From positions 1 to 64,000 of the IMG/VR virus record IMGVR_UViG_3300034102_001587: DNA of 64,000 bases, one strand, 5' to 3'. This document shows, piece by piece, positions 1-64,000 of this stretch. How positions within the stretch are numbered: the stretch's first letter is position 1; each line of letters starts with the position of its first letter. The position numbers and the translations under genes are program-made. The notes under the pieces are model-generated. The model searched no databases and was not told where the DNA came from. It saw nothing but the letters and a program-made list of their open reading frames with translations. The stretch is from a virus.

Positions 1-2412
1 GGTGTAACCAAATCAAACTCGGAAAAAATATATTTTTCTCACATTACATTTGAAGATGTAAATGGTAATAAGTTTTCTACCATATCAAATGAAAACGCAG
101 AATACAAAATCAATCTAAAATCCGGTGTATATCAAATCAAAGCATCTTATGTTGGATATACTACTTACACAAATCAAATAAACCTAACATCAGATACTAC
201 ATTTGATATTGTATTTGCGGATGATGCAAAACAATTATCAGAAGTTGTTGTTAGAGCGGCACCTCAAAAAGTAACCGAAGTAGCGGTAGTAAGAACAATC
301 CGAAATAGTAATGTGGTATCGGATGGAGTATCAATAGAATTCATTAAAAAAACACCCGATAGAAATGTGGGTGATGCACTTAAAAGAGTAAGTGGTGTAA
401 CAATTCAAAACGATAAGTTTGTATTAGTAAGAGGATTGGCAGATAGATACAATTCAGCCATTCTAAACAAAACACTTCTACCATCAACCGAACCTGATAG
501 GAGAGCATTTTCATTTGATATAATTCCAACCGCATTAATTGATAACATTATAGTTTCTAAATCAGCATCCGCAAATCAGCCGGGAGATTGGAGTGGTGGA
601 TTGGTTCAGATTACAACAAAAGAAGTATCCGATAATTTCTTCAATATCTCATTGGGAAGTGGTTGGGGTTCGGTTTCAACTTCGAAAGGTTTCAAGTTAG
701 TTCAAGCTACCGAATTCCCTTCCACATTCCCATCCACTTACAAATATCGTATTAGTGGCAATGGTGATAAGAGATTATTTACAAAGCAATTCGGCAATCC
801 AACGGAAGAATCCTTTACATCTACTCCAAACTTAAATGGAGGTCTTTCGTTTGGTTATACAAAAGGAAAATTTAATTCCTTATTTAGTTCAACTGTAAGA
901 AACACATTTACTCTAAATAATATTGAAAGAAAGGATTATCAATCATCAACTGAATTAGCATACGATTATAAAGATATTTTATATACAAAAAGATTTTCTA
1001 CAAATGGTTTATTAAACTTAACTTATTTAGGTGAAAATCGATATAGCTGGAAAACATTAGTAAACTATCAGGCAGATGATACATACCTAACCCGTAGTGG
1101 TGATAACTTTGATAATGTTCAAAATGTTTTAAGTAATTCATCTAACCACATTAATAATATTGTAATCAATTCTCAATTAGATGGTAAACTTAAAGATTGG
1201 GATTTCAATTTAGGGTATAATTTTATATTCAGAGAACAGCCCGATTATAGAGTAAATCCAATTACAAAATCATTAGGTGTAAACGAACCTTATGCTACTG
1301 CATGGAGAGATACATATCGTTTTTGGAGTGTAATGGATGAGAATAGTTTTAATGGTAACATCAACAAATCGTTTGGTAACATTAAAGTTGGTGGTGGTTA
1401 TCTAAAAAAGATTAGAGGATTTAATGCAAGAATATTCAGATACCTTTCAACTGATATGTTAGATGAAATAACAAACAATACCGATAGATATACTGCTGAT
1501 TTTGATTTAGGTTCTCTTTATTCAATGTATGAAAACGAATGGGGTAAGTGGAAACTAAATACAGGTTTGAGAGGTGAGTATAATCTATTCAATGTTAATA
1601 CAGCAGATTTTAGTGGACAGAAAGTAAATGTGAATAGAGAGTATTTAGACCTTTTACCATCATTAAACCTTTCTTACAATTTAGAAAAAACAAAGTATAG
1701 ATTTTCATTAAGTAAAACATTGGCAAGACCTGAATTTAGAGAAGTAGCTAATTTTGCTTATTATGATTTTGTAAGAAACGCACAAATATTGGGTAATTCT
1801 AAATTAGAAAAATCTGACATATATAATGTAGATTTGAAATGGGAACTATATCCAAAAGCAGGAGAGAATATTTCAGTATCCGTATTTGGTAAACAATTCA
1901 TTAGACCGATAGAACAAATAGTAGCAGATGGTTCAGTTCCATCTAACTTATTATTAACTTATACAAATCCTGATAATGCACTTCTTTATGGTGTTGAATT
2001 GGAGTTTCGTAAAAAGGTAATGAGTTGGTTAGATGTATATACCAATACTTCGGTAATGAATTCTGAAGTAAATGTAAATGGAATAAAAAGACAATTACAA
2101 GGGCAATCAAACTATGTAATAAATGGTGGTGTTAATATTCACAAAAATAAAAACACACTTAACATAACTTACAATAGAGTAGGTGATAGAATATCAGCAG
2201 TAGGATTTCAGGGTTACCCAGACATATTTGAAAACAGCAGAGATGTATTGGATATAACTCTTTTACATAAACTCAAAAATGGGGAAATAAAATTGGCAGT
2301 AGGTGATGTATTTGGCCAATCATCAATCTATTATCAAAAGTTACAAAACCGAAATCTAATAAAAATAAACAACGAACAAACAATTTCATTAACATTAAAT
2401 TTAACATTATGA
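1..2412 (+). CDS. TonB-dependent outer-membrane receptor (5' truncated by window edge)
   Basis: The frame is open from base 1, so the gene starts left of the window; 803 residues are visible. The first ~80 residues look like a carboxypeptidase-regulatory-like beta-sandwich (motif GVYQIKASYVGYTTY) typical of Bacteroidetes receptors. A plug domain follows at about residues 85-205 (EVVVRA, GDALKRVSGVTIQ, VRGLADRYNSAILN), then a long barrel rich in alternating aromatic strands up to the last residue. Such receptors import siderophores, glycans or other ligands across the outer membrane using TonB energy. The stop overlaps the start of the next gene (ATGA), so receptor and lipoprotein are probably translated together. 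It is unexpected beside phage structural genes; it may be phage-carried or mark a host flank. Substrate cannot be told from sequence. Confidence 0.85.
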   Translation, partial: GVTKSNSEKIYFSHITFEDVNGNKFSTISNENAEYKINLKSGVYQIKASYVGYTTYTNQINLTSDTTFDIVFADDAKQLSEVVVRAAPQKVTEVAVVRTIRNSNVVSDGVSIEFIKKTPDRNVGDALKRVSGVTIQNDKFVLVRGLADRYNSAILNKTLLPSTEPDRRAFSFDIIPTALIDNIIVSKSASANQPGDWSGGLVQITTKEVSDNFFNISLGSGWGSVSTSKGFKLVQATEFPSTFPSTYKYRISGNGDKRLFTKQFGNPTEESFTSTPNLNGGLSFGYTKGKFNSLFSSTVRNTFTLNNIERKDYQSSTELAYDYKDILYTKRFSTNGLLNLTYLGENRYSWKTLVNYQADDTYLTRSGDNFDNVQNVLSNSSNHINNIVINSQLDGKLKDWDFNLGYNFIFREQPDYRVNPITKSLGVNEPYATAWRDTYRFWSVMDENSFNGNINKSFGNIKVGGGYLKKIRGFNARIFRYLSTDMLDEITNNTDRYTADFDLGSLYSMYENEWGKWKLNTGLRGEYNLFNVNTADFSGQKVNVNREYLDLLPSLNLSYNLEKTKYRFSLSKTLARPEFREVANFAYYDFVRNAQILGNSKLEKSDIYNVDLKWELYPKAGENISVSVFGKQFIRPIEQIVADGSVPSNLLLTYTNPDNALLYGVELEFRKKVMSWLDVYTNTSVMNSEVNVNGIKRQLQGQSNYVINGGVNIHKNKNTLNITYNRVGDRISAVGFQGYPDIFENSRDVLDITLLHKLKNGEIKLAVGDVFGQSSIYYQKLQNRNLIKINNEQTISLTLNLTL

Positions 2413-3605
2413 GAAAACTATTAGGAATTATTTTAATTTTGGGACTATTCAGTTGCCAAAAAGAATTGGGTGGAGATGATGCACCTATTAACATTCCATC
2501 ATCAACAACATTAACCGGAACTATTAACACAACAACAACTTTGACAGCAGACAAAGTGTGGACATTGAAAGGATATGTTTATGTAACCGATGGTGCTAAA
2601 CTTATCATTCAACCTGGCACTACAATCATTTCTGATATAAGTGAGAAGGGTGCATTGTGTATCGAAAGAGGTGCACAAATAATTGCGGAAGGAACTGTAA
2701 CAAAACCAATTGTATTTACATCAGGCAGACCTGCAGGTGAAAGAACTCCTGGTGATTGGGGTGGTATTGTAATATTGGGTAGAGCAAAAACCAATAGAAC
2801 ATCAGAACCAACTATCGAAGGTGGTATTGGTAGACCTTATGGTGGAACAAACGATTTAGATAATAGTGGTGTTCTAAAATATGTAAGAATTGAATACGCT
2901 GGAATTGCTTCAATGCCAAACTCTGAAATCAACGCATTAACATTAGGTGGTGTTGGTAGTGGAACAATAATTGATAATGTTCAAACTATCTATGCTAACG
3001 ATGATGCATTTGAATTCTTTGGTGGAACTGTAAATGCTAGAAACTTATATGCATTTGCAACTGCTGATGATGATTTTGATTTTGATTTTGGATACACCGG
3101 AACTATTACAAATGGTGTAGCAAAGAGAGACCCACAATTCGTAGATAACGGAGATGCTGGAAATGGCATTGAATGTGATAATGATGGCACGGGTTCAACT
3201 GCAACTCCATATACACATCCAAAACTATTCAATATGATTTTAGTTGGTCCTAATGTATCAACTGCATTGGCAAACCATAACTTAGGTTTAAGATTTAGGA
3301 GAGGGACTCAATTCACAATGAAGAATAGTGTAATTTGGGGATGGATGAAAGGTGGATTGAGTTTAGAAAGTAATGAAACTGCACAATTCGTAAAAGATGG
3401 TGTTTCTGTATTTGAAAACAATTCAGTAGGAACATTTAACCCTACGCTAAACTTTATCAGTAGAGCAACCACAATCCTAACAAATGACCAACTTAAAACT
3501 TTGGCATTAAGTAAGAGTAATAAAGAAATAGATGTTGTAATACCTGAATTAGATAAACCAATATGGGTGAATGGGTGGGCTAGATTCCCATCTAAAGGTA
3601 ATTAA
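2409..3605 (+). CDS. Putative outer-membrane lipoprotein with right-handed beta-helix-like repeats
   Basis: 398 residues. The N-terminus is a lipoprotein signal peptide with lipobox LFSC (Cys16), followed by an acidic stretch (GGDD). The body carries beta-helix-like turns: a TLTGTI/WTLKGYVYV opening, IIQPGTTI, IIAEGT, PIVFTSG, DWGGIVILG, then several Gly/Asn-rich turns (GGVGSGTIIDNVQ, DDAFEFFGGTVNA). Families of this appearance in Bacteroidetes are secreted or surface-exposed and often annotated only as hypothetical lipoproteins. The start overlaps the receptor stop by four bases, which suggests a receptor/surface-lipoprotein pair analogous in layout, but not in sequence, to SusC/SusD. A strong terminator follows directly. 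The beta-helix fold is inferred from repeat pattern only. Confidence 0.7.
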   Translation: MRKLLGIILILGLFSCQKELGGDDAPINIPSSTTLTGTINTTTTLTADKVWTLKGYVYVTDGAKLIIQPGTTIISDISEKGALCIERGAQIIAEGTVTKPIVFTSGRPAGERTPGDWGGIVILGRAKTNRTSEPTIEGGIGRPYGGTNDLDNSGVLKYVRIEYAGIASMPNSEINALTLGGVGSGTIIDNVQTIYANDDAFEFFGGTVNARNLYAFATADDDFDFDFGYTGTITNGVAKRDPQFVDNGDAGNGIECDNDGTGSTATPYTHPKLFNMILVGPNVSTALANHNLGLRFRRGTQFTMKNSVIWGWMKGGLSLESNETAQFVKDGVSVFENNSVGTFNPTLNFISRATTILTNDQLKTLALSKSNKEIDVVIPELDKPIWVNGWARFPSKGN

Positions 3606-3610
3606 AAAGA

Positions 3611-3636
3611 AAGGGAGTATTAAACTCCCTTTTTTT
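3611..3636 (+). terminator. Rho-independent terminator
   Basis: AAGGGAGT (3611-3618) pairs with ACTCCCTT (3624-3631) around a 5-base loop and runs into a T-tract. It closes the receptor/lipoprotein unit and abuts the next promoter motif. Confidence 0.85.
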
Positions 3637-3645
3637 ATATTTATA
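3637..3645 (+). promoter_or_regulatory. Phage late-promoter motif ATATTTATA
   Basis: Exact ATATTTATA, 20 bases before the ATG at 3666. The longer string ATATTTATAGGTAAC recurs identically at 60622 in front of the neck gene, tying this left region to the phage transcription programme. Confidence 0.55.
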
Positions 3646-4514: not shown

Positions 4515-5873
4515 TTGAAAAAATTATTATCACTATTGACCATATTGGTATTTGTTTGTGTAAGCTGGAAAGCTGAAGGACAAACCTATACGCAAACCTA
4601 TAAAGATAAATGTACTGGTGAAATTAAAATAGCAACCACTACAATCACAAACGGATTTGCAACAGTATCTTTCTATAATCAAATAAGAGTATTCTCACCA
4701 CAGGAAGTAATGGCAGGTGCGGTTCAAGTTTGGATAACCGCAACTTATACAGCATATTCAACAATGGGATGTCCTACAAATCAAGTAGTTCAGCAAACAA
4801 TAACTCAAGCAGCTGCTCAAGCAGCATCACAAGCAGCATCACAAGCAGCATCACAGGCTGCAAGTAGTGCTGCAAGTTCGGCAGCTAGTTCATCGGCTTC
4901 TACCGCTGCAAGTAGTAGTGCAAGCGCAGCAGCTGCATCAACACCATCAACAACGGCACCACCTTCATCTGGTAGTAGTTCTTCATCGTCTTCATCGGGA
5001 AGTAGTTCATCTTCATCATCAAGTTCATCATCCGAAACCAAAACTGAAACTAAAACAGAGACTAAATCTGAAACAAAATCAGAGAGCAAATCAGAAAGCA
5101 AGTCAGAATCAAAAGAGGAATCCAAATCTGAAAGCAAATCGGAAGAAAAGAAAGAAGAATCCAAGTCAGAGGAGAAGAAGGAAGAAAAGAAAAAAGAAGA
5201 AAAAAAGAAATCCGTAGCAAACCCAATGATGTTAGCATCTGATTTGGCTGGTACGGAAGATATGGAAGGTAGATATGCTGTAATGATGAGTGTGGGAGTT
5301 TCTAAATCATCTCTTATGGGTGATAAATCATATTCAGCTACCGCACTTATTTGGAGTACCCTAAACCAATTCGCATTGAGTGCTGGGGTTACTAAGATGG
5401 ATTTTGATGAAGGTAAATTAAATGCGATACATTCATACGGAACTACATTTGCGTACCTTAAAGGAACTCTAATGAACCTTAATGGATATACCTACATCAA
5501 ACCACATCCTAAGTACGGAACATTTGGTTATAATGTGGGTGTAATTACCCTAATGATGCCTAGAATGGGTGAGGGTGGTTATGATGTATCCCTAAGTGCA
5601 TCTGCAGTTGGATTTTGGATGAAACCATTTCAATATAGTAGAAAGGTTACACTAACCCCTCAATTATTCCTAATGCAATCACCGATAGCATGGAATACAT
5701 TGACAGGAAATAGTTCAGTAACACGAAAACCTGGTGCTATAATTGGGTTAGGATATGATTATAAACTTAGTAAACGATTTGCTCTATCAACTTCGTATAG
5801 AGGAGCTATGACCTTTGAACCTAAATTTAATTTGATGAACAACTTCCAAATTGGTTCAAAGATGGTATTTTAA
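4515..5873 (+). CDS. Secreted protein with Ala/Ser and Ser/Glu/Lys repeat linker and probable C-terminal barrel
   Basis: 452 residues from a TTG start, chosen because it yields a perfect signal peptide (MKKLLSLLTILVFVCVSW) nine bases after the upstream stop. A small domain with two cysteines covers about 24-95. Then follow QAAS repeats, an A/S-rich run, an almost pure serine block, and charged ETK, SESK and EEKK repeats to about residue 235. The final ~215 residues look like an outer-membrane beta-barrel (GYDYKLSKRFALSTSYRG, ending in Phe). The layout, a small domain joined to a barrel by a long disordered linker, would suit a periplasm- or surface-exposed tether crossing the peptidoglycan layer. 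The serine block is also a possible glycosylation target. Function unknown. Confidence 0.65.
   Translation: MKKLLSLLTILVFVCVSWKAEGQTYTQTYKDKCTGEIKIATTTITNGFATVSFYNQIRVFSPQEVMAGAVQVWITATYTAYSTMGCPTNQVVQQTITQAAAQAASQAASQAASQAASSAASSAASSSASTAASSSASAAAASTPSTTAPPSSGSSSSSSSSGSSSSSSSSSSSETKTETKTETKSETKSESKSESKSESKEESKSESKSEEKKEESKSEEKKEEKKKEEKKKSVANPMMLASDLAGTEDMEGRYAVMMSVGVSKSSLMGDKSYSATALIWSTLNQFALSAGVTKMDFDEGKLNAIHSYGTTFAYLKGTLMNLNGYTYIKPHPKYGTFGYNVGVITLMMPRMGEGGYDVSLSASAVGFWMKPFQYSRKVTLTPQLFLMQSPIAWNTLTGNSSVTRKPGAIIGLGYDYKLSKRFALSTSYRGAMTFEPKFNLMNNFQIGSKMVF
4800..5215 (+). repeat. In-gene low-complexity repeats
   Basis: Three tandem 12-base copies of GCAGCATCACAA (4821-4832, 4833-4844, last one degenerate at 4845-4856) encode QAAS units. 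Ser codon runs follow to about 5034, then degenerate ETK/SESK/EEKK codon repeats to about 5215. Such tracts vary in length by slippage. Confidence 0.85.
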
Positions 5874-6567: not shown

Positions 6568-6840
6568 ATGATAAAGCTTACTCAACTAAACGAAGCATCG
6601 GAAGTAAAATTCAAAGAATTAAAGCCTATTCAACAAAAACAGGTTGTAGCATTTCAAAAAGTAATTGGTGCAGACCATTCTCAAATTTTTGCTGGTATTC
6701 ACGGAATGGTGGTAGATATTCCAGCAAGAGGTAATTTTGGAACTGGTTATCGTTTTGGCGCCGATACTCTTAAAAAATTATTAGCATTAAAGATTCGTTG
6801 GGTTGAAGCAGATGGTGATGTAATTTCAATAGGATTTTAA
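6568..6840 (+). CDS. Small protein with candidate capsid-targeting N-terminus
   Basis: 90 residues, starting two bases after the upstream stop. It begins MIKLTQLNE, the signal shared by several proteins in this window, with a hydrophobic-x-Glu triplet (LNE, residues 7-9) like the T4 gp21 cleavage motif. The rest is a compact alpha/beta domain with no recognised family (GIHGMVVDIPARGNFGTGYR in the middle). Inference: an internal head protein processed by the prohead protease. Confidence 0.5.
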   Translation: MIKLTQLNEASEVKFKELKPIQQKQVVAFQKVIGADHSQIFAGIHGMVVDIPARGNFGTGYRFGADTLKKLLALKIRWVEADGDVISIGF

Positions 6841-40828: not shown

Positions 40829-43009
40829 ATGAAAAATAGAAAAAAGTTACTTTATGTATGTCCACACCTTTCAACAGGCGGACAACCACAATATACATAT
40901 AAGCAAGTAAAGCATTTTTTAAATGATTTTAATATTGAAGTTGTTGAAATAAACAATAGTGGTGGTGATGCGTTTGTAGTTCAAAAAAATAGAATTAAAT
41001 CTTTAGCTATTGTACATACTTTAGGTGAGGATAAATCTAAAATACTTGATATAATTAAAGACTACAAACCTGATATAATTCATTTTCAAGAAATCCCACA
41101 ATTTGATTTATCAAATGAAATATTAGATAAAATATTTGATAACAAAAGAAAATATTTTATCGTAGCAACAACACATGGTTCATTTACAAATCCATTAGAT
41201 ATTACACATCATCCAGATAGATATGTTTTGGTATCTGAGTGGAGTAAACAAAAATTTGATGATGCTAATTTAGGAGTTGAAACTCAACTTTGGGAATATC
41301 CCATTGAAGAATATAATTTTGATAAAGAAGAAGCGCAAAAAAAATTAGGATTTGACCCAACTTGGAAGCATATTTTAAATGTTGGATTATTTTCACCGGG
41401 CAAAAATCAAAAAGAAATATTTTCAGTAGCAAGGCAATTGGAAAAATATAAAATTAAATTTCATTTTGTTGGAAACCAAGCTATGAACTTTGAAAATTAC
41501 TGGTTGCCACTAATGAAACATAAACCTGATAATTGTGTTATATGGGGAGAGCGAAATGATGTTGATACATTTTATGCAGCATCTGATTTGTTTTATTTTT
41601 CATCAATATTAGAGTTAAATCCATTATCGGTAAAGGAAGCTCTTTCTTACAAGCTCCCATGCTTATTTAGAAGATTGCATACTTTTTTGGATACATATGA
41701 TAACAATAATTTAGTAACATATATTGATGATGATACTAAAAAAACAAAACAATTATTACTTCAAAAATTAAAACCTGAATTTTACGAAATACCTGGTTGG
41801 TTTTCATATGAAAATTTATATGATAGAATGGTAGAAACTGCACCTTTTAATTCTACATTTGTTGAGGTTGGTTCTTGGTTTGGAAAATCTACAAATTATT
41901 TAGCAAAAAAAATTAGAGATTCTAAAAAGAATATTTCATTTACAACAATAGATACATTTAAAGGAACTGGAGATGAAGAATTACACATAGATATTGTAGG
42001 GTCTTTCAATGGAGATATATTTTATGAATTCGTTGATAACACAGTTATTTCAAATAATTATGAAGCGTTTAATACTATAAAAGATACATCAGAAAATGCT
42101 TCTAAACTATTTCAAAATAATTCTATTGATTATATAATGATTGATGGTGGGCATAGTAGAGATTTTGTATTAGGTGAGTTAGATAGATGGTATCATAAAG
42201 TAAAACCTGGTGGAATTATTAGTGGAGATGATTTTGGAGTTTTTAGTGGAGTAACAGATGCAGCTAATCACTTTTTTTATGGACAGATTCAAAAAGATTT
42301 TTTATCTTTTGTTCGTAAAAAACCACGTATTCAAATAAAACATATGTTGACAAGACCGGATGATATGCGTGAAAGAGTATCTATTCAATCTTTAAAACAA
42401 TTACGTCAATATGGAATTGATTATCAACCAATTGTTAATAAGGTTTATGAAGGGTTACCGCCGGCAGAACATTGTAGAAGACCTGAGCATTTAAGTAAAG
42501 ATAATAAACCTGGTGAATTATATCCTGGTGCTGGTTTGGGTTGGATAACTGGTAGACATTATGGTTGTTATTTAGCACATAGAAACGCTATAGAAACAAT
42601 AGATGATACGAATTACGATTATACTTTAATATTTGAAGCCGATGCATTTATTTACACAGGGTTAGAAGAATTTGTAAACATAGTTCATAAAGCCTGTTTT
42701 ATTTCAGAAAGAGATGATGTATATTTTATAGGATTGGCAGATAACCCATCACGAGAAAAATATAGAATTGATGATTTGTTTACAAAAACAGGACACAATC
42801 AAGACCTTGCACACGCTTATTTAATTCCAAATAGAAACAAAAGCTGGTGGATGGATAGAATAAAAGATTGTGAATGGGATGTGGGCGACCTTTGGTTTAA
42901 TCATATATTTTATCACCATCCAAAACCTAGATATACTACTAATAAAATGTACTCCAAACAAGCAGAAGGATATTCTTTATTGGATGAAACTATAAAAACT
43001 TGGGATTAA
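40829..43009 (+). CDS. Trifunctional GT4-like / methyltransferase / GT25-like glycan enzyme
   Basis: 726 residues. Residues 1-~325 resemble a GT4/GT-B glycosyltransferase: LYVCPHLSTGGQPQYTYK at the start, ILNVGLFSPGKNQKE (about 184), and SSILELNPLSVKEALSYKLP (about 258). Residues ~330-480 form a class I SAM-dependent methyltransferase (STFVEVGSWFGKSTNYLAKK, then DYIMIDGGHSRDFVLGELDR and PGGIISGDDFG). Residues ~500-726 resemble a GT25-type transferase (GWITGRHYGCYLAHRNAIE, YTLIFEADAFIYTGLEEF, with EAD where EDD is usual). All in one frame, driven by a host-type promoter. It probably builds and methylates a sugar decoration of virion proteins; acceptor and sugars are unknown. Confidence 0.75.
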   Translation: MKNRKKLLYVCPHLSTGGQPQYTYKQVKHFLNDFNIEVVEINNSGGDAFVVQKNRIKSLAIVHTLGEDKSKILDIIKDYKPDIIHFQEIPQFDLSNEILDKIFDNKRKYFIVATTHGSFTNPLDITHHPDRYVLVSEWSKQKFDDANLGVETQLWEYPIEEYNFDKEEAQKKLGFDPTWKHILNVGLFSPGKNQKEIFSVARQLEKYKIKFHFVGNQAMNFENYWLPLMKHKPDNCVIWGERNDVDTFYAASDLFYFSSILELNPLSVKEALSYKLPCLFRRLHTFLDTYDNNNLVTYIDDDTKKTKQLLLQKLKPEFYEIPGWFSYENLYDRMVETAPFNSTFVEVGSWFGKSTNYLAKKIRDSKKNISFTTIDTFKGTGDEELHIDIVGSFNGDIFYEFVDNTVISNNYEAFNTIKDTSENASKLFQNNSIDYIMIDGGHSRDFVLGELDRWYHKVKPGGIISGDDFGVFSGVTDAANHFFYGQIQKDFLSFVRKKPRIQIKHMLTRPDDMRERVSIQSLKQLRQYGIDYQPIVNKVYEGLPPAEHCRRPEHLSKDNKPGELYPGAGLGWITGRHYGCYLAHRNAIETIDDTNYDYTLIFEADAFIYTGLEEFVNIVHKACFISERDDVYFIGLADNPSREKYRIDDLFTKTGHNQDLAHAYLIPNRNKSWWMDRIKDCEWDVGDLWFNHIFYHHPKPRYTTNKMYSKQAEGYSLLDETIKTWD

Positions 43010-63726: not shown

Positions 63727-64000
63727 ATAGAACAACACCAAATATAGAATTAGGAACTACTCTTAAAAAAAGAGATAGAATGGATTTTAAATCATTTGTA
63801 ACTGGTGTAGTTACTGATACATTTATTTATCAATTTAATCCAAATGCAATTAGTTTAGATGAAACTGGAGAATTATTTACACTTTCTTTATTTAATAAGA
63901 GATTTATAGTAGATAATTTACAAGTAGATAAAGTGAAGGATTATATTGATGTATATTTATTTGGAGTTAAACAGCCACAAAACCGATATGATGTCAGTTT
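63723..64000 (+). CDS. Structural protein, 3' end beyond window
   Basis: Starts with ATG at 63723, overlapping the previous stop (ATGA), and stays open for 92 codons to the edge. The visible part (TPNIELGTTLKKRDRMDFKS, TDTFIYQFNPNAISLDETGE, FIVDNLQVDKVKDYIDVYLF) is beta-rich; no family can be called. Continues the neck/tail operon; sheath and tube genes would be expected further right. Confidence 0.6.
   Translation, partial: MNRTTPNIELGTTLKKRDRMDFKSFVTGVVTDTFIYQFNPNAISLDETGELFTLSLFNKRFIVDNLQVDKVKDYIDVYLFGVKQPQNRYDVS

Follow-up and report, generated by a model that had tools for sequence, protein, structure and literature searches.

The window analysed here is the stretch from base 1 to base 64,000 of the 136,291-bp virus record IMGVR_UViG_3300034102_001587, and its base 1 is the start of the record. 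At its left end lie two overlapping open reading frames (ORFs) on the plus strand, which encode a TonB-dependent receptor (ORF1) and a predicted surface lipoprotein (ORF2), and this gene pair is the subject of the present report. ORF1 is truncated at its 5′ end because the window begins at record base 1. We found the full receptor gene of 825 codons at L006:9935-12412, where L006 is the end of a 160-kb virus contig from another sample and the receptor is identical over all 803 residues present in the window. The 22 codons missing from the window carry a signal peptide, as expected of a TonB-dependent transporter, and the receptor start in L006 reads MKRFFFILLLLPIFSFAQ.

ORF1 matched the Pfam families CarboxypepD_reg_2 (E 4e-9), Plug (3e-7), and OMP_b-brl_3 (3e-26), and its TIGR01782 match fell below the cut-off of that model. 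The CarboxypepD_reg-like domain lies outside the match in many phage relatives, whose alignments begin at query residue 60 to 77. The AlphaFold2 (AF2) model of the receptor had a predicted local distance difference test score (pLDDT) of 87.2, and Foldseek matched it to TonB-dependent transporters (E 7e-24). BtuB1 of BtuB1-BtuG1 and XusA of XusA-XusB were among the structural matches. With the signal peptide, the plug, and a large barrel of the TonB-receptor type all present, ORF1 is a TonB-dependent transporter, and its LSEVVV segment (Table 1) would be the part that contacts TonB. The original prediction, made from the window alone, had described a receptor with regulatory domain, plug, and barrel that overlaps a lipoprotein gene in the same direction, and the Pfam domains and the ATGA overlap bear this out. 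Its remark that the pair resembles phage genes in base composition also held (GC content 0.325 versus 0.319, with codon usage inside the range of phage genes).

ORF2 had no Pfam match, and searches of PHROGs and NCBIfam also yielded no name. PDB sequence searches with the lipoprotein found nothing. The lipobox cysteine C16 was invariant across 59 lipoprotein homologs, and so were the acidic residues D198, D199, D220, D221, D224, E255, and D257. The AF2 model (pLDDT 91.6, predicted template modelling score 0.89) is a right-handed beta-helix. Foldseek gave no match to it at E < 0.001. VIA-align placed the model near several epimerases, lyases, and tailspikes with a beta-helix, which tied at a Z of about 24, and therefore no function was taken from fold similarity. 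A SusC/SusD-type pair was considered and rejected, since the partner has no Pfam match, and hence no SusD family, and was modelled as a beta-helix.

The two genes were adjacent and overlapped by ATGA in 73 of 73 distinct phage pairs; in bacterial relatives, the lipoprotein ORF mostly starts 12 to 369 bp past the receptor stop. A terminator-like hairpin followed 48 of 70 phage pairs. The phage-type promoter that had been predicted to follow the pair without a gap is real, and a terminator lies between ORF2 and this promoter, ATATTTATA. The ATATTTATA motif occurs 13 times in the window against 5.2 expected, mostly ahead of genes, and none of 100 shuffles reached 13 copies. It stands before phage transcription units at window positions 3637, 5883, 8789, 12805, 26167, 45002, 52021, 59105, 59784, and 60622, and by likeness it is an analogue of the T4 late promoter.

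Table 1. Features of the gene pair and its downstream border in the window
Feature	Position	Strand	Basis or remark
ORF1, TonB-dependent receptor	1..2412	+	803 of 825 codons present; 5′ end open
CarboxypepD_reg-like N-terminal domain	58..252	+	Pfam
TonB-box-like segment LSEVVV	235..252	+	LxEVVV in phage and bacterial alignment consensus
Plug domain	319..585	+	Pfam
C-terminal beta-barrel OMP_b-brl_3	1369..2400	+	Pfam; strands in AF2 model
ATGA stop/start overlap of both genes	2409..2412	+	Lipoprotein start inside receptor stop codon
ORF2, predicted surface-lipoprotein gene, right-handed beta-helix, FII relative	2409..3605	+	398 aa; lipobox; AF2 model
Lipoprotein signal peptide and lipobox cysteine	2409..2456	+	Lipobox MRKLLGIILILGLFSC-QKE; C16
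Intrinsic terminator closing the cassette	3606..3636	+	Hairpin
Late-type phage promoter ATATTTATA, serving the following unit	3637..3645	+	Cassette boundary, outside the cassette

Phage residency, origin and probable exchange of the pair

About 10 kb upstream of the receptor in L006 consists of phage-type genes, and further right the window encodes T4-type terminase, portal, baseplate wedge, and endolysin genes. Scans of virus collections, in which the best 80 matches per scan were retained, gave at least 114 distinct virus contigs of up to 326 kb with relatives of one or both genes (manual count). Contigs as long as 100 to 326 kb carry the pair well away from their ends, and in the 326-kb contig a portal gene is about 17 kb from it. 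A T4-type portal was present in 22 of 49 contigs tested and a T4-type terminase family match in 25 of 49. These counts leave out LR745206, a very large phage sequence of 634,780 bp (with it, 23 of 50 and 26 of 50). The portal is the cleaner phage marker because the terminase family also matches bacterial control genomes. Pairwise ratios of nonsynonymous to synonymous substitution rates (dN/dS) between the window genes and their relatives had medians of 0.13 for the receptor and 0.12 for the lipoprotein. These ratios and the codon usage are those of resident genes under purifying selection. Two fecal records labelled as phage that contain the pair, MT838075 and MT837092, are unverified fragments of 5.7 and 7.7 kb and were not used as phage evidence; MT838075 groups with Parabacteroides in the tree.

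The receptor is cut by the contig start, as it would be if the left end of the window were host DNA from a prophage border, a chimera, or contamination, yet L006 has phage genes upstream of an identical receptor, the pair lies deep inside the long contigs, and the lipoprotein is 65% identical to its best bacterial match (among the matches listed) against 96-100% among phage copies, so that this explanation retains next to no probability. Both alternatives of the original prediction can thus be answered. Extension to the left showed phage genes and not host synteny, which together with the 33 gene families on each side of the pair described below refutes a host, prophage, or assembly junction. 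The search of related phages, the single phage clade, the codon usage, and the low dN/dS support that the pair is phage-encoded, and the same evidence of residency, clade, and selection supports the proposal that the virus remodels host uptake.

We also scanned 84,980 species genomes, and the bacterial loci discussed here are the matches listed in that scan. In these loci the receptor gene almost always directly precedes the lipoprotein gene, as an operon. In the lipoprotein tree all 21 of 21 phage rows formed one clade (Shimodaira-Hasegawa-like approximate likelihood ratio test, SH-aLRT, 100), which was nested among mostly Chitinophagaceae rows (L166-L175; 96). The 20 phage rows of the receptor tree also formed one clade (SH-aLRT 100), beside L166 (91). 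By these trees, the phage pair and a Chitinophagaceae-type bacterial operon share a common origin. As far as sequences can tell, the pair has the properties of auxiliary metabolic genes, being host-derived, placed inside bona fide phage genomes, and kept by selection. In LR745206 both proteins are encoded side by side (L005:13581-17421; 28% and 38% identity). Since this pair is in reversed order, with the lipoprotein first, and falls on another branch of the lipoprotein tree, it is probably a second, independent acquisition. Its row was left out of the alignments used for the structure models. The phage genomes of more than 634 kb described in PMC7162821 were all predicted to replicate in Bacteroidetes.

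The genes around the phage pair differ from phage to phage. The upstream neighbours belong to 33 families among 65 informative loci and the downstream neighbours to 33 families among 69, and no flanking gene family is common to more than seven loci. In 19 contigs the median identity was 41% for the portal, 76% for the lipoprotein, and 69% for the receptor, and divergence of the pair was uncorrelated with portal divergence (rho 0.03 and 0.07). The simplest reading of these data is that diverged T4-like phages have exchanged the pair as a unit, although part of the gap in identity to the portal would come from stronger conservation of the pair. With a putative promoter element of its own, a terminator-like hairpin, and insertion among unrelated phage genes, the pair looks like a moron-type cassette. 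Contig ends seemed overrepresented inside the cassette, but a rough estimate did not put them clearly above expectation, and we make no claim of it.

Two kinds of genes recur near the cassette. The ORF at window 4515-5873 encodes a secreted protein with a long low-complexity stretch of Ser, Ala, Lys, and Glu and a C-terminal domain, and its cluster recurs downstream of the cassette, at a distance of a few genes, in many relatives (45 loci). A small predicted membrane protein, a hydrophobic ORF of 137 residues (L102:7030-7443) without a Pfam match, is often encoded just downstream (33 loci).

Phosphate genes and 11-bp repeats

Many of the bacterial relatives lie close to phosphate genes. Seven of the 10 nearest bacterial loci have PhoR/PhoB, PiT, PhoU-like, or OprP-like neighbours. 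In 8 of 50 genomes (manual count) a PiT gene is no more than 10 kb away from the pair, where 0.31 would be expected. In Flavobacterium micromati (L218) the gene order is phoR, phoB, receptor, lipoprotein, and these proteins are 28.6% (receptor) and 48.4% (lipoprotein) identical to the phage pair. In F. johnsoniae, Fjoh_0545 and Fjoh_0546 (lipoprotein FII) are in the phoBR operon and rise on phosphate depletion by log2 fold changes of 8.0 and 9.9 (PMC8115612). Fjoh_0545 has the same three Pfam domains as the phage receptor, and Fjoh_0546 belongs to the beta-helix class IPR011050 (PMC8115612). Judged from its sequence relatives, ORF2 is related to this low-phosphate lipoprotein FII of Flavobacterium.

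The likeness of the phage pair to Fjoh_0545/Fjoh_0546 (PUSIV) extends to gene order, to a receptor with Plug, CarbopepD_reg_2, and OMP_b-brl_3, and to a lipoprotein of the beta-helix class, and it is drawn from the F. micromati locus as the sequence relative and from the published descriptions of the F. johnsoniae genes. The phage copies differ in that they overlap by ATGA, have no phoBR alongside, form a separate clade nearer Chitinophagaceae, and appear to be mobile among phages. The lipoproteins FI, FII, and FIII are reported to be homologous to ElpS of Caulobacter crescentus, a lipoprotein made under phosphate starvation (PMC8115612). ElpS is anchored at the cell surface and has been linked to phosphatase activity, and by its description it differs in needing a type II secretion system for its release into the medium (PMC2996285).

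PHO boxes consist of two 11-nt direct repeats (PMC4415409). In 66 upstream regions of the bacterial operons, NTAAYA pairs were spaced by 11 bp 69 times, by 22 bp 32 times, and by 33 bp 28 times, and every other spacing occurred at most 8 times. In 26 non-redundant phage receptor upstreams the 11-bp spacing occurred 13 times and any other spacing at most 3 times, whereas 268 upstreams of other phage genes had the 11-bp spacing only 3 times. A matrix built from the bacterial upstreams alone separated the phage receptor upstreams from the 268 controls at spacing 11 with an area under the receiver operating characteristic curve (AUC) of 0.873 (p 1.7e-10), against AUC values of 0.54-0.68 at other spacings. 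In phages the box is formed by a pair of TAAYA units at 11-bp spacing and lies about 55 nt ahead of the receptor ATG. A second element, TARTTATTG, was present in 17 of the 26 phage receptor upstreams and in 1 of the 268 controls, usually 25-31 nt before the ATG, and the late promoter was present in none of the 26 and in 70 of the 268. At the level of the family, these regions carry repeats of the Pho type, as judged from spacing and matrix score. A strict search of the window found no repeat box, since the contig begins downstream of it.

Among bacterial genes other than the receptors, the upstreams that the matrix scored highest included those of OprP-like porins and of a calcineurin-type phosphoesterase. 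A calcineurin-type phosphoesterase with an 11-bp repeat box lies near the bacterial operon at L173:5513-6340, with relatives in L167, L218, and L235, and it may belong to the same phosphate regulon as the operon.

A candidate phosphorus-acquisition cassette

Taken together, these observations make it likely that the pair is a self-contained mobile phosphorus-acquisition cassette of T4-related Bacteroidota phages that is switched on by host PhoB. Its promoter would be distinct from the phage late promoter and would consist of a TAAYA repeat box like that of the ancestral bacterial operon and, nearer to the gene, of TARTTATTG at about 28 nt from the ATG. When phosphate is low, phosphorylated host PhoB would bind this box and turn on the cassette during infection. 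The lipoprotein would then capture or process a phosphorus-containing substrate on the cell surface, and the receptor would move the substrate across the outer membrane with TonB energy. Host periplasmic phosphatases and PiT or Pst transporters would complete uptake, and the imported phosphorus would feed phage DNA synthesis. Carriage of such a switchable unit suggests that phosphorus import by the infected host is sustained by the virus.

There are precedents for T4-like phage genes tied to phosphate. In cyanophages, host PhoB can drive phage genes, and phosphorus genes such as pstS of P-SSM2 and genes of S-PM2d are under host PhoBR (PMC10976474). Cyanophage Pho boxes are read by the host regulator, whereas the box described here is putative and has another sequence. 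The gene products also differ, an outer-membrane TonB receptor and a surface lipoprotein in Bacteroidota hosts rather than periplasmic PstS. BtuB1-BtuG1 (8blw), XusA-XusB (9gbc), and SusCD of Bacteroides are similar in that a receptor and a surface lipoprotein act as a pair; their lipoproteins are of other families, and their substrates are cobalamin, siderophores, or glycans.

Several observations weigh against a PhoB-switched phosphorus cassette. Just 12 of the 26 phage receptor upstreams scored above the 99th percentile of the controls. The pair's own receptor has a weak copy of the box (score 9.4), CTTCATAATTTGATAATATTGA, which L006 shows 55 nt ahead of the ATG, and the LR745206 pair is without a strong box (score 3.2). 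In cyanophages, PhoB often fails to bind the Pho boxes that have been predicted (PMC10976474). We found neither phoB nor pst nor a phosphatase gene next to the phage pair, and the substrate of the transporter cannot be read from sequence.

Import of another substrate, such as an iron chelate, a glycan, or a vitamin, and surface exclusion are the weaker rivals. If another substrate were imported, the phosphate neighbourhood of some bacterial relatives would be incidental. A phosphate gene lies within 10 kb in just 12 of 50 bacterial loci of at least 15 kb, and the closest folds to the lipoprotein are those of polysaccharide epimerases and lyases, as such a reading would have it. The 11-bp phased repeats are far above background in the bacterial upstreams and also stand before OprP-like and phosphoesterase genes, and we therefore regard another substrate as unlikely, if less so than the explanations that follow.

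A broader proposal joins uptake to exclusion, in a general phosphate-sensing takeover of the surface by lytic phages of Bacteroidota. A PhoB-switched importer would both feed the infection and shut out rival phages by crowding or replacing surface receptors. The phosphorus would come from extracellular sources, such as the DNA or phospholipid that lysed neighbours release, and phages with virion genes no more than about 40% identical would hand on the cassette as a single unit. In this full form we think it improbable.

The receptor might instead only remodel the cell surface, replacing or masking the receptor of competitors (superinfection exclusion) or acting as a decoy, with uptake irrelevant. 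TonB-dependent receptors are well-known phage receptors, and the receptor is more variable between phages than the lipoprotein (median 69% versus 76%). Against this, the lipoprotein is always co-encoded and is the more conserved gene, the plug and the TonB-box-like segment are retained, and a Pho-type promoter has no obvious use in exclusion. The original prediction had also proposed that the phage provides or masks a receptor or blocks superinfection. We found no positive evidence for this, and the lipoprotein partner, the bacterial phosphate context, and the Pho-box-like promoter favour phosphorus uptake, which leaves pure remodelling hardly likely.

The lipoprotein could also act mainly as an enzyme, with a beta-helix like that of a depolymerase, and alter the envelope or capsule of the host during infection while the receptor serves as its carrier. 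Its fold is common to tailspikes, lyases, and epimerases, and it has the invariant acidic set described above, but a common fold is no proof of activity, Foldseek gave no match at E 0.001, and the homologous bacterial family has documented induction at low phosphate, and this explanation is very unlikely.

Two further observations concern other proteins of the window. One ORF (40829-43009) has an N-terminal match to a glycosyltransferase family followed by a match to a DNA-methyltransferase family. Unrelated-looking phage proteins at window positions 6568, 6842, 7192, and 49773 and at L006:9056 share the N-terminus M-I-(K/R)-L-(T/K/S)-x-(L/I), which is possibly a targeting or processing signal.

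To our knowledge, the known phage phosphorus genes (pstS, phoA, phoH, phoU) do not act at the outer membrane. Full-text searches of the open-access literature turned up no account of a TonB receptor for phosphorus that a phage encodes, and this absence is weak evidence. If the phosphorus-acquisition reading is true, many T4-like phages whose hosts are non-photosynthetic Bacteroidota carry an outer-membrane importer together with its surface lipoprotein, and a lytic phage plugs one transcription unit into the phosphate sensor of its host. The pair also offers a way to test what lipoproteins of the FI/FII/ElpS family do, and the cassette could connect virus infection with the turnover of organic phosphorus.

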